A stretch of 64,000 bases of DNA from Streptomyces sp. NBC_01551. GTDB lineage: Bacteria; Actinomycetota; Actinomycetes; Streptomycetales; Streptomycetaceae. This document shows, piece by piece, positions 25,791 through 29,371 of this stretch. The notes under the pieces were generated by a model. That model saw only the letters and a program-made list of their open reading frames with translations, ran no database searches and was not told the origin of the DNA. The position numbers and the translations under genes were made by a program. The stretch's first letter is position 1. Each line of letters opens with the position of its first letter. The stretch spans positions 742,501 to 806,500 of the forward strand of contig NZ_JAPEPX010000001.1 in assembly GCF_026339935.1 (NCBI RefSeq). Direction: 5' to 3'.

Positions 25791-26671
25791 GCGGGGCGCG
25801 CGCCCTGCTGGTGCTCCGCGCGGGGGCGCTGACCACCGTCCAGGACCGGGGCCGGCCCGGGTACGCGCACCTCGGGGTCCCCCGGTCGGGCGCCCTGGAC
25901 GCGGGGGCGCACGCGTTGGCCAACCGGCTGCTGGGCAACCCTGCGGACGCCGCGACCCTGGAGACCACCCTGGACGGGGTCGCCCTGCGGGCGCTGGCCC
26001 CGCTCACGGTGGCGGTCACGGGAGCGTCCTGCGCGGTACGGGCCTCAGGACGCCCGGTCGCCTGGGGCGAGCCGGTGTGGCTCCCGGCCGGGGCCGAGCT
26101 GGAAGTGGGCCGGGCGGTGTCGGGGCTGCGCAGCTACGTCGCGGTCCGGGGCGGCTTCGCCGTACCGCCGGTCCTGGGCAGCCGGGCGACGGACCTGCTG
26201 TCGGGCCTGGGCCCGGACGTGCTCGCGGCGGGGGCGGTGCTGCCGGTGGGGGCGGCGGGGCGGGACCCGGTGACCGGGGCGGACGTGACGGGGGCGGCGG
26301 GGGCGGGGCCGGGGGCGGAACTGCTGCTGCCGTTGCGGCTGGGGCCCAGGGCCGACTGGTTCACCCCGGAGTCGATCGCGGGGCTCTGGCGCTCCGGGTA
26401 CCGGGTGTCGGCGATGTCCAACCGCATCGGCCTGCGCACGGAGGCGGGCCCACCGCTGCTCCGGTCGCGCCCGGGCGAACTCCCGAGCGAGGGCATGGTC
26501 CTGGGCGCGGTCCAGGTCCCCCCGGACGGCCTGCCGGTGGTCTTCCTGGCCGACCACCCGGTCACGGGCGGCTACCCGGTACTCGGCGTGGTCCCGCCCG
26601 GCCCCGCCCTCAACGCGGCGGCCCAGGCCCGACCGGGGGTCGGGGTGCGGTTCGTGAGGGCGCGGGCGTGA
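25787..26671 (+). CDS. pxpC: 5-oxoprolinase subunit PxpC
   Basis: A 294-residue protein of the allophanate-hydrolase subunit 2/KipA family (TTVQDRGRPGYAHLGVPRSGALD near the N-terminus; SNRIGLRTEAG and FLADHPVTGGYPVLG later). ATG overlaps the pxpB stop and GAGG precedes it, so pxpABC is one translationally coupled operon. The inverted-repeat element begins almost immediately after its stop. Confidence 0.93.
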   Translation: MSGARALLVLRAGALTTVQDRGRPGYAHLGVPRSGALDAGAHALANRLLGNPADAATLETTLDGVALRALAPLTVAVTGASCAVRASGRPVAWGEPVWLPAGAELEVGRAVSGLRSYVAVRGGFAVPPVLGSRATDLLSGLGPDVLAAGAVLPVGAAGRDPVTGADVTGAAGAGPGAELLLPLRLGPRADWFTPESIAGLWRSGYRVSAMSNRIGLRTEAGPPLLRSRPGELPSEGMVLGAVQVPPDGLPVVFLADHPVTGGYPVLGVVPPGPALNAAAQARPGVGVRFVRARA

Positions 26672-26689
26672 CCGGCATACGGGTCGGGC

Positions 26690-27055
26690 GGGATGGGACA
26701 GGGTTGGGGACTTCCCGCCAGTCTCACTGTCCTTCCGGTTCGGTCCGGCCCGTCAAGGGCGCTCACTGCGTTCGCGTCGCTTCGCGATGGCCTTCGGCCA
26801 CCCTTGACCGACCGGCCCGAACCGGAATGCCAAAGACTGTCGGGAACCCCCCAAAGAAACGGTCAGGGGGAACCGTTCCAGGGAGGGCGACGCGAGACGC
26901 CTGAACGGGACCCCTGCCTCCCGGCAACGCCGCCCTCCGGGCGGAAAGACACCCGCACCAGCCCCCAGCAGCACCCAAGTACCAAACGGGGGCCAGGCGC
27001 GTCAGATCGCTACGTGCTCCTCATTGCCCGGCGACCGCGACCCGTCTGTGGCCGG
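26690..27055 (+). repeat. Left ~365-bp inverted repeat flanking the DUF3224 gene
   Basis: This segment reads, in inverse orientation, like 27571-27935. Matching landmarks in order are GGGATGGGACAGGGTTGGGG, the central palindrome, CCAAAGAAACGGTCAGGGG, CTCCCGGCAACGCCGCCC, GGGCGGAAAGACA, GCGCGTCAGATCGCTACG and GTCTGTGGC. The central ~150 bp are nearly identical by eye; the rest is more diverged. No gene lies inside it. Confidence 0.88.
26710..26853. repeat. Nested palindrome within the left inverted repeat
   Basis: Arms 26710-26759 and 26801-26853 are complementary (CTTCCGGTTCGG...GTCAAGGG against CCCTTGAC...CCGAACCGGAA). They enclose a 41-bp core with smaller hairpins (TCGCTTCGCGA, TGGCCTTCGGCCA). 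The outer part of the left arm is less perfect than in the right copy. Confidence 0.85.
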
Positions 27056-27160
27056 ACATAAGCCGCCCACGATCGCTACACAGCGCGGACCGGCCGGCGG
27101 CGAACGGTCGCCGTGGGCTGGTCAGGGCGCGTTGTCAGTGGGCGTCCTTACGATCGAGGC

Positions 27161-27568
27161 ATGAGAGCTTCTGGAACGTTCAGCGTCAAAGCCTTCGACC
27201 CGACCGACGTCGTGCCGTCTCCCCCTGTGGCCACCGGAGTTCCGGTGGGCGTGATGACGATGGAGAAGCACTTCGAGGGTGACATCGTCGGCCGTTCGGC
27301 CACGCTGTTCACCTCTGCGTTCGACCACACGGCGGGTGTTGGCACCTACCTGGCCATGGAGTCCTTCGAAGGCACGCTGAACGGTCGCGAGGGTGCGTTC
27401 AACTTCGCGCATTCCGCCACGACGCACGGCAGTGACCGTGTCAACGAGTTCTTCGCCATCGTGCCGTCCAGTGGCACCGGCCGACTCACCGGCATCGCCG
27501 GATCCGGTGGGCTGACCGTCGATGCCGACGGCACCCATCGGGTGTGGTTCGACTACGAGCTGAGCTGA
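27161..27568 (+). CDS. DUF3224 protein inside an inverted-repeat cassette
   Basis: A 135-residue small beta-rich protein of the DUF3224 family (start MRASGTFSVKAFDP; AMESFEGTLNGREGAFNFAHSATTHG; RLTGIAGSGGL). Function unknown; the fold resembles allene-oxide-cyclase-type barrels. Codon choice and G+C look lower than in neighbouring genes. TACGAT (27149-27154) ends six bases before the ATG and there is no ribosome site, suggesting a leaderless message. It is the only gene between the two inverted repeats; the right repeat begins three bases after its stop. Confidence 0.85.
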   Translation: MRASGTFSVKAFDPTDVVPSPPVATGVPVGVMTMEKHFEGDIVGRSATLFTSAFDHTAGVGTYLAMESFEGTLNGREGAFNFAHSATTHGSDRVNEFFAIVPSSGTGRLTGIAGSGGLTVDADGTHRVWFDYELS

Positions 27569-27570
27569 CC

Positions 27571-27935
27571 AGCCACAGACGTCCGCAGTCGCCAAGCCGT
27601 GAGGAGCGCGTAGCGATCTGACGCGCCCTGCCGGCCTTCTGTTAGTCGGATGCTGCTGGGGGCGGGTTCGGCTGTCTTTCCGCCCGGAGGGCGGCGTTGC
27701 CGGGAGGCAGAGCTCCCGGCCAGGCGCCTCGCTCCCGAGAGGTGGGCATGGTCCCCCCTGACCGTTTCTTTGGGGGGTTCCCGGCAGTCTTTGGCATTCC
27801 GGTTCGGGCCGGTCGGTCAAGGGTGGCCGAAGGCCATCGCGAAGCGACGCGAACGCAGTGAGCGCCCTTGACGGGCCGGACCGAACCGGAATGCCAAAGA
27901 CTGCCGGGAACCCCCCAACCCTGTCCCATTCCGTC
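27571..27935 (-). repeat. Right ~365-bp inverted repeat flanking the DUF3224 gene
   Basis: Inverted copy of 26690-27055. It begins at the DUF3224 stop and ends about 40 bp from the stop of the next gene. The central palindrome is better preserved here than in the left copy. No coding sequence is evident within it. Confidence 0.88.
27770..27918. repeat. Nested ~149-bp palindrome within the right inverted repeat
   Basis: Arms 27770-27823 and 27865-27918 (about 54 bp each) are complementary except for a few bases. They run from TTGGGGGGTTCCCGGCAGTC through GGCATTCCGGTTCGG to GTCAAGGG. The 41-bp core is the inverse of the left copy's core. In single-stranded form it would make a long stem with small hairpins on top. 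Confidence 0.9.
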
Positions 27936-27973
27936 CGACGTGAATACCGGACACCCGACACCGCAGCCCGGAC

Positions 27974-29371
27974 CTACACCGCCGACTCCGGCGCTATCCG
28001 GCTCCGGACCGCCGACTGGACTTCCTCTTCCTCCGCCGGGTCCGCCGCCAGGTGGCGCAGCCGGGGGGCTACACGGGCGTCGGCCGTTTCCGCGTGGTGG
28101 GCCGCCACCTCGCGGGTGGTCTCCTCGCAGTCCCACAGGCACTCGACCGCGAAGCCCGCCGCGAAGGACGGGTCCGTGCTGGCCAGGGCGCGCGCCGCGC
28201 GGCCGCGCAGGTGGGACGAGGACGTCTCGCGGTAGACGTGGCGCAGCACCGGTGCCGCGCAGCCGATGGCGAGCCGGCCGGCTCCGTCGACCAGGGGGAA
28301 CAGCCTCAGGCTGTCCGGGCCCGCGCCGCGGACCGTGGAGCGGAGGGCGCTCAGGACGAGGTTCGTGTCCTCGGCGCCGCCGCGGGTGGCGAGGAGGGCC
28401 GCCGCGGCCGCTCCGAGGGCGTCGGGGCGGTGGGCCCAGAGCCGGGCCCGGTCGATGGCGGCGGGGCTGTACATGCGCTCGTAGGCGGCCACGGCGGGCT
28501 CGTCCCCGGCGGCTTCGATGAGGTCGAGGACGGCCGGGTTGTCCGGTTCGGCGACGACCAGGTGGTGCAGGGCGGTGGCCCGGGCCGCCTCGCCGGCGGC
28601 TCCGGCGGCGGCCGCGAGGATCGCGGAGCGGTCCTCGGGGGCGGCCACCGCGGCGAGGCAGCGGGCGGCGGGGACGTGCAGCGGGGTGCCGCGGCTCAGG
28701 CCGTCGGCGGCCCAGTCGAAGACGGCCTGGACTCCCCAGCCGGGGCGGGGCCCGCTGGGCGTCAGCTGGCGCTGCCAGCGGTCGAAGGAGCCCTGCTGGC
28801 GGGCGGCGCGCAACCGCTCGCCGAACTCGGGCGTCTCTTCCCACAGGCACCAGGGCCGCGGCTCGTACGCGTCGCGGACGGCGGCGGCCAGCCGCGCCTC
28901 GCCGTCGGCGGTGGCCGGGAATCTGGCGAGGATGGGGGTGGCGAGGCCGCGCAGTCCCTCGTCGTCGTCGCGCAGGGCGAGTTCGTCGAGGGCCCACGCC
29001 CAGTTGGCGCCGGAGGCTGCGTACCGGCGCAGCAGCATGAGCGCGTCGTCGCGGCCGTAGGAGGCGAGGTGGCCCAGTACGGACAGGGCGAGGCCGGTCC
29101 GGTGGTCCTCCTCGTCGACGAGGTCGTCGGCGCTGAAGAGGTGGGTCTCGATCTCGCCGAGGGGGCCGTCGAGGTCCAGGTAGAGCCTGGCGTAGTACAG
29201 GGAGCGGTTCTCGACCCGCCAGTCCTGGCGCGGGTCGCGGAGCACGCACTGGTTGAGCGCCGCGAGGGCCTCGGCCCTGGGTGCGGCCAGGGCGTGCAGC
29301 GTGCCGTCGCCGCGACCCCGCTGGAGGAGCCCGAGCAGGGTGCCGCTAGGCGCTATGACTGGTTCGAACAT
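27974..29371 (-). CDS. HEAT-repeat-like helical protein, function unknown
   Basis: A 465-residue soluble protein made of repeated Ala/Leu helix pairs (for example ARATALHHLVVAEPDNPAVLDLIEAAGDEPAVAAYERMY and SHLRGRAARALASTDPSFAAGFAVECLWDCE), resembling HEAT/armadillo solenoids, usually protein-binding. No catalytic motif. GAGG about 9 bases upstream supports the start. It converges on the right inverted repeat. Confidence 0.75.
   Translation of the reverse strand: MFEPVIAPSGTLLGLLQRGRGDGTLHALAAPRAEALAALNQCVLRDPRQDWRVENRSLYYARLYLDLDGPLGEIETHLFSADDLVDEEDHRTGLALSVLGHLASYGRDDALMLLRRYAASGANWAWALDELALRDDDEGLRGLATPILARFPATADGEARLAAAVRDAYEPRPWCLWEETPEFGERLRAARQQGSFDRWQRQLTPSGPRPGWGVQAVFDWAADGLSRGTPLHVPAARCLAAVAAPEDRSAILAAAAGAAGEAARATALHHLVVAEPDNPAVLDLIEAAGDEPAVAAYERMYSPAAIDRARLWAHRPDALGAAAAALLATRGGAEDTNLVLSALRSTVRGAGPDSLRLFPLVDGAGRLAIGCAAPVLRHVYRETSSSHLRGRAARALASTDPSFAAGFAVECLWDCEETTREVAAHHAETADARVAPRLRHLAADPAEEEEVQSAVRSRIAPESAV

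Follow-up and report, generated by a model that had tools for sequence, protein, structure and literature searches.

Conserved inverted hairpins with a promoter-like stem at the ends of a putative dispersed gene cassette in Streptomyces

Between a pxpC-type gene and a convergent gene of Streptomyces sp. NBC_01551, two long inverted repeats, each with a palindrome inside it, enclose a single small gene, and the question is what such a structure is and how it reached this place. The window is the whole stretch of DNA that was analysed, 64,000 nucleotides in length. The reading that we favour, with a probability of about one half, is that the structure represents one of several dispersed copies of a non-autonomous cassette whose ends are inverted, conserved hairpins with a sigma-70-like promoter pattern in the stem and, we infer, with a role on single-stranded DNA.

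Two unequal palindromic arms around a DUF3224 gene

Self-comparison of this region confirmed the two inverted copies noted in the first-pass annotation, with arms of ~390 bp around one DUF3224 gene. The left arm occupies 26668..27058 (minus strand, outer end at 26668) and the right arm, defined by self-comparison together with ungapped blocks, 27566..27954 (plus strand, outer end at 27954). When aligned to each other, the arms are 85.5% identical over 393 positions, and the ungapped inverted blocks between them measure 152 nt (96%), 106 nt (84%), 57 nt (82%) and 49 nt (84%). The inner repeat of each arm in the inverted-block search (26991..27039 on the left and 27584..27632 on the right) carries a GATCGCTACG-type motif. 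The enclosed gene (27161..27568, plus strand) encodes 135 aa matching PF11528 (E 5.3e-36) and, with a dN/dS of 0.18 against its S. goshikiensis orthologue, is under purifying selection. Upstream lies a CT_A_B (pxpC-type) gene (Pfam E 6.2e-80); the downstream convergent gene, which had been called HEAT, gave no Pfam match. The DUF3224 gene is not always accompanied by arms, since no inverted arms were found within 1.5 kb at 29 fetched loci of homologues (E 1e-10).

A palindrome of ~145 bp had been described in each copy. This plan is correct for both arms but the two palindromes are unequal: the right one (27770..27918, from the inverted-block search) is almost perfect, with 54-nt arms at 94% separated by 41 nt, whereas the left one is genuine but weaker, with 32-nt arms at 84% and 72.7% identity over 154 nt in self-comparison. 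Each contains a 55-nt core of mini-hairpins, located on the left at 26753..26807, where it reads TCAAGGGTGG...GCGCCCTTGA on the minus strand, and on the right at 27817..27871 (plus strand). The core pattern matched twice in the window, compared to no match in 100 shuffles. A covariance model, R1, found the same two places (26731-26829, 80.0 bits; 27795-27893, 80.3 bits) and nothing more in the window above its own reverse strand. A known RNA family was rejected, as the stretch 26400-28300 had no Rfam match at gathering thresholds.

Copies at other sites and patchy occupancy

The source genome carries five such elements with differing contents. Besides the window element, they lie at C1:1706884-1708047, C1:4208365-4209528, C1:6203328-6205459 and, in a divergent form, C1:3505790-3507899. 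The first two of these, a 1.16-kb pair at distant sites and in opposite orientations, share 96.4% identity across 1,235 bp. Between the copies, corresponding arms are 96-98% alike, compared to 92-93% for the arms within one copy, which indicates that each was copied as a unit. Apart from DUF3224, the contents in this genome include a beta-lactamase-family protein and an HbpS-like protein with MarR, according to a Pfam scan that covered part of the longer elements; no transposase was found among the contents scanned in this and other genomes. In other genomes the elements hold a glyoxalase with a WYL protein, NUDIX, DUF3089, DUF2867 (at two loci) or, in Actinomadura, DUF222. Related DUF2867 genes with 73% nucleotide identity lie in elements at different loci of two species (L135 and L071). 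The cores are less than 1.1 kb apart in 24 of 35 distinct parsed elements, so most of the elements found are short. These may lack a gene, and the 1.16-kb pair has no coding-like frame, by a coding filter strict enough to miss DUF3224 as well.

One origin that had been offered was the capture of a passenger gene between two palindromic elements inserted independently. It might be seen in the 60 of 100 cores that lack a detected partner in the 80 loci listed, many of them near a locus edge and some with a degenerate partner by self-comparison. However, independent insertions predict all orientations, and all 55 adjacent pairs among the matches listed are head-outward (20/20 pairs of adjacent cores among the 80 loci listed, and 35/35 R1 pairs within 5 kb among the 150 matches listed). 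The copies of 1.2 kb, moreover, share both arms and the middle. We therefore consider such a trapping event unlikely for these copies and very improbable as the general explanation.

A structure fixed in the chromosome and inherited with its locus would agree with S. goshikiensis JCM 4640 (L175), where the same element and gene occur in synteny (84.7% identity over a 3.6-kb alignment, 88% for the gene). To set against this, we fetched the HEAT locus from 30 matched genomes, 29 of them relatives. Arm-like sequence lay within 1.5 kb in only three of the 29, a count that divergent arm types may escape, and contents differed: one has DUF2867 inside and no right palindrome (G062), one has no evident gene (G274) and one is a remnant (G333). 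Orthologous sites are empty in many relatives and hold other contents in some; at three further sites, element-like sequence was present in 3/21, 3/14 and 9/25 relatives. The occupancy data indicate that at least two species share the window element, and that the family as a whole occurs patchily, recurs at some sites and differs in its contents. With copies at other sites as well, a fixed local structure was rejected and is scarcely credible. The pattern that would have marked one, with the repeats at this locus in all relatives and nowhere else, was not what we found, and the five elements, the 96.4% pair and the empty or differently filled orthologous sites support the dispersed, non-autonomous cassette proposed in the first-pass annotation. 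In two loci (L053 and L055) the inverted flanks extend past the shared arm, and insertion into pre-existing palindromes may be considered there. By eye, element ends at L208, L191, L234 and others adjoin genes with DUF397-like C-termini. An inner unit of GATCGCTACGCGC type also occurs alone, in REP-like fashion, near gene ends (L068 and L069; G000:C1:873706 and 5619774) and forms tandem arrays inside the arms of G012 (L059).

A conserved hairpin with an outward promoter pattern

Searches beyond this genome revealed what the first-pass annotation did not anticipate, namely wide conservation of the palindrome as a module whose stem contains a promoter pattern and which also occurs on plasmids. 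A core pattern of 24 fixed bases recovered at least 119 stretches, mainly from Streptomyces but also from Actinomadura, Nocardia, one Mycobacterium and Caulobacterales bins. With a slightly looser pattern, ten non-Streptomyces genomes gave 1-11 copies each compared to 0 for the reversed control, and the exact pattern matched two of 396 genomes of the phylum, both Streptomyces. Model R1 matched 114 of 295 sampled Streptomyces genomes at E 0.001 and, across the class, 75 of 296 genomes and 26 of 114 genera at E 0.0001; the broad distribution rests on R1, whose E-values are rough. In 107 kb of coreless loci used as a control, R1 found nothing below E 0.2. No match was seen in 50,697 phage records at E 0.01; the core pattern is present on one viral contig.

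The 236 cores fell into 60 clusters, which left 42 representatives after removal of reverse-orientation duplicates; these are non-independent, some sharing one genome (L178, L302). Alignment A1 holds 37 of the 42, leaving out by choice L065, L092, L251, L252 and L301. RNAalifold predicted 19 pairs on A1, and 94.3% of cells were paired, compared to 77.9% in shuffles and 36-49% with partners slid, figures that are somewhat favoured because the structure was derived from A1 itself. Two-sided changes occur in 12 pairs, including 7/7 in the spacer helix. The palindrome is thus a conserved fold in which compensatory changes have preserved a stem that bears mini-hairpins. Of 36 parsed representatives, 30 have GNA, a triloop of unusual stability in DNA, as the loop of the second mini-hairpin, and those from Caulobacter have the complement. 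The Caulobacterales stretches (L307-L309, L316-L318, L324, L326, L327) are single dispersed copies with these complementary (TNC) loops and a -10-like box (e.g. GATGAT) 17 bp from TTGA; no paired copies were seen among them.

In the outer arm, the core terminates in CCCTTGAC, and the stem contains a -35 element (TTGAC). Among the 42 outer arms, xAxxxT follows TTGAnn at a spacer of 16 in 43%, 17 in 24% and 19 in 17%, compared to 0-2% at other offsets from 8 to 31. The corresponding values for the 42 inner arms are 10%, 2% and 7%, with 0-12% elsewhere. For spacers 16-17 combined, the pattern is found in 28/42 outer and 5/42 inner arms, and it recurs in many lineages: outside Streptomyces, the counts are 17/21 outer and 4/21 inner (one of the 21 being the viral contig, of unknown host), while other offset pairs give 0-1 outer and 0-3 inner. 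The outer-arm score of 4.24 exceeded all 1000 dinucleotide shuffles (2.12, sd 0.15). The inner-arm score was slightly raised, at 2.67 compared to 2.24 (sd 0.16), a value reached by 4 of 1000 shuffles. In a fold with DNA parameters, the -10 positions are unpaired with probabilities of 0.46-0.63, compared to 0.05-0.34 between -35 and -10; position 6, beside the -35, is likewise often unpaired (0.57). The predicted placement of -35 and -10 in the stem corresponds to the architecture of single-strand promoters such as Frpo and sso.

The window itself belongs to a subfamily with a 19-bp spacer, and its own promoter match is weak on the left and lost on the right. The left arm carries the -35-like TTGACG at 26751..26756 and a weak -10-like GACAGT at 26726..26731 (both minus strand), with the 19-bp spacer seen in 17% of outer arms, while in the right arm the -35-like TTGACG (27868..27873, plus strand) remains and the -10 box is overwritten. 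Among the eight arms of four elements in the source genome, seven agree exactly in their outer halves over 47 nt and also in their inner halves. The exception is the right arm of the window element, whose outer half carries inner-half sequence at 27892..27918 (plus strand), including a variant private to this arm, as seen by arm comparison; in the S. goshikiensis orthologue this tract is unconverted. Such a trace would be expected from a template switch within the folded hairpin. Because the conversion removed the -10-like box, the right end of the window element is probably no active promoter at present.

Depending on the query, the core was found on 21, 31 or 33 of 72,556 plasmid records (overlapping sets). 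On the 1,579-bp Curtobacterium plasmid pD03b (L330), which also has a CopG-like gene, a same-strand Rep_trans-like frame directly precedes it; the Rep_trans match (E 1e-4, 22.4 bits) is under the curated 29.6. This plasmid is a candidate test bed for sso activity. In six of 14 fetched plasmid stretches, from Cutibacterium, Gulosibacter, Miniimonas, Leifsonia, Glutamicibacter and Micromonospora, mobC follows 217-869 bp downstream of the core in the same direction, although five of the six have a similar backbone and gene order and so are not independent. The remaining eight stretches have other neighbours.

The core was also seen beside insertion sequences and HNH genes. On Acidiphilium cryptum pACRY03 (L334 6001-6178), one of those eight stretches, the gene for an ISL3-family transposase lies 127 bp downstream of the core, whose promoter side faces it. 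In Candidatus Mycobacterium methanotrophicum (G800; L311, L319, L325), the core lies inside a short, repeated element whose ends (GGMTCTWCTG...) are ISL3-like, and 8-bp direct repeats flank all three inspected copies, by eye. In Actinomadura, cores adjoin DUF222-HNH (13E12-like) genes at the readable sites (L176 2751-3983, L304, L305, L306/L315, L313/L320), and the two arms at L176 are 98% identical. This gene was considered as the autonomous part and rejected: by eye, it is missing at the fetched Mycobacterium, Nocardia and Caulobacter sites, so that we treat it as another passenger. Pfam was used to identify the L176 protein and inspection by eye the others; in two cases the contig stops at the core.

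Could the elements be ordinary non-autonomous DNA transposons, with the arms as long terminal inverted repeats used in trans by a transposase, the palindromes as binding sites and the outward promoter pattern secondary? Unit copies carrying both arms and the patchy occupancy of orthologous sites are what such a transposon would give, and the target duplications of the Mycobacterium element (8 bp, 3/3 inspected copies, by eye) point the same way. At 20 Streptomyces pairs, however, the longest direct match averaged 6.25 nt compared to 5.82 (sd 0.20) in permutations, about 2 sd, and this slight excess is partly due to the palindromic ends. A MITE in the strict sense is thus not supported, given that there is no clear target duplication at these pairs and no transposase in the scanned contents. 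An ordinary transposon would also leave unexplained the core on small plasmids and the -35/-10 geometry, and we regard it as unlikely, if worth keeping in play.

The outward -35/-10 pattern would equally suit a double-strand regulatory device, in which paired outward promoters or terminators sit between genes and the palindrome acts in duplex DNA or as RNA. Convergent coding-like frames end within 120 bp at 18 of 62 usable outer flanks under a strict filter, and on two plasmids a co-directional ParA or ATPase gene follows shortly after the core, as such a device would have it. Selection has kept the arms complementary, however, which is needless for a duplex promoter, and contents differ and sites are multiple. 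We judge this explanation improbable.

A proposed single-strand role and its relation to known systems

Returning to the dispersed cassette with hairpin ends, we propose a model built on single-strand function. A strand would become single during rolling-circle replication, transfer, repair or at a replication gap, and the hairpin at the 3' end of the single strand would fold. Host RNA polymerase could then start in the stem, read away from the loop towards the base and continue into the passenger; the promoter would lie in the 3' arm of the folded strand, so that transcription would pass into the DNA on the 5' side of the hairpin, where the passenger is. The outcome would be a second-strand primer or an early transcript, as at Frpo or at an RNA-polymerase-dependent sso. 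With one hairpin at each end, either strand could be served, and short fragments passing through single-stranded DNA would thereby survive and spread. Both the single-strand function and an enzyme that would mobilise the cassettes are things that we infer.

Several observations speak against this single-strand reading. The same sequence in duplex DNA could be a plain outward promoter. On mob plasmids, a leading region on the non-relaxase side may mean that the promoter-bearing strand is not the transferred one. Inner arms show xAxxxT in up to 12% at other offsets, with a slightly raised score, and position 6 is open. The window subfamily has the 19-bp spacer and has lost the right-arm box, and the Caulobacter loops are complementary.

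A bolder form of the proposal is that these are mobile cassettes living through single-stranded DNA, whose end hairpins work only when unpaired and prime or express inward across the passenger. In actinobacteria and some alphaproteobacteria the hairpin would serve generally as a single-strand origin or promoter, which plasmids, IS elements and chromosomal cassettes would have borrowed. We regard this form as a serious but doubtful possibility. To our knowledge, single-strand promoters and origins are little known in the class; if the hairpin works on single-stranded DNA, one covariance model marks candidates for them in 75/296 class genomes. Second-strand synthesis and gene expression on entry of plasmids and integrative elements would become testable in these bacteria, and Streptomyces would have a route for shuffling single genes among chromosomal sites. 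No description of these cassettes was found in the open-licence PMC literature.

Among known systems, the elements share with MITEs and other non-autonomous transposons their dispersal, their terminal inverted repeats and the lack of a transposase gene in the contents scanned, but no clear target duplication was seen in the Streptomyces elements. Integron gene cassettes also set single, varied genes between palindromic sites, whereas here each cassette has two inverted ends. Parvovirus-type terminal repeats are alike in shape only, as inverted terminal palindromes with small internal hairpins, and we claim no relatedness.

The sso sites of rolling-circle plasmids and ICEs are a further comparison. 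According to the portion of PMC4595007 consulted, some of them recruit RNA polymerase. The consulted portion of PMC4170104 mentions the pIJ101 sso and reports RNA-polymerase-independent priming for the Streptomyces plasmid pSN22, a route that calls for caution in a Streptomyces host and speaks against the single-strand reading. As far as these excerpts describe them, the likeness lies in folded, non-coding, orientation-specific DNA beside rep on a minimal plasmid; a non-coding fold near rep on a rolling-circle plasmid was found in one case, pD03b. Our hairpin, by contrast, is a candidate by fold and position, and pIJ101, whose sso is known, has no R1 match, which likewise counts against the reading.

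Single-strand promoters of the Frpo/ssi kind were reportedly described by Masai and Arai in 1997. In the excerpt of PMC11541004 consulted, Frpo is a secondary structure that mimics duplex DNA and is recognised by host RNA polymerase. The hairpin is set beside it by architecture as described, not by sequence: as far as the excerpt goes, both combine a duplex-imitating fold bearing -35 and -10 with a plasmid site near transfer genes. A -35/-10 pair within the single-strand fold is present in the outer arms (28/42; 17/21 outside Streptomyces), and the window arms fit weakly. The element hairpin differs from Frpo/ssi in occurring in both Actinomycetota and Alphaproteobacteria, in its extra mini-hairpins and in its inverted pairs around chromosomal passengers; these pairs may mark the two ends of a mobile gene cassette of a little-known kind.
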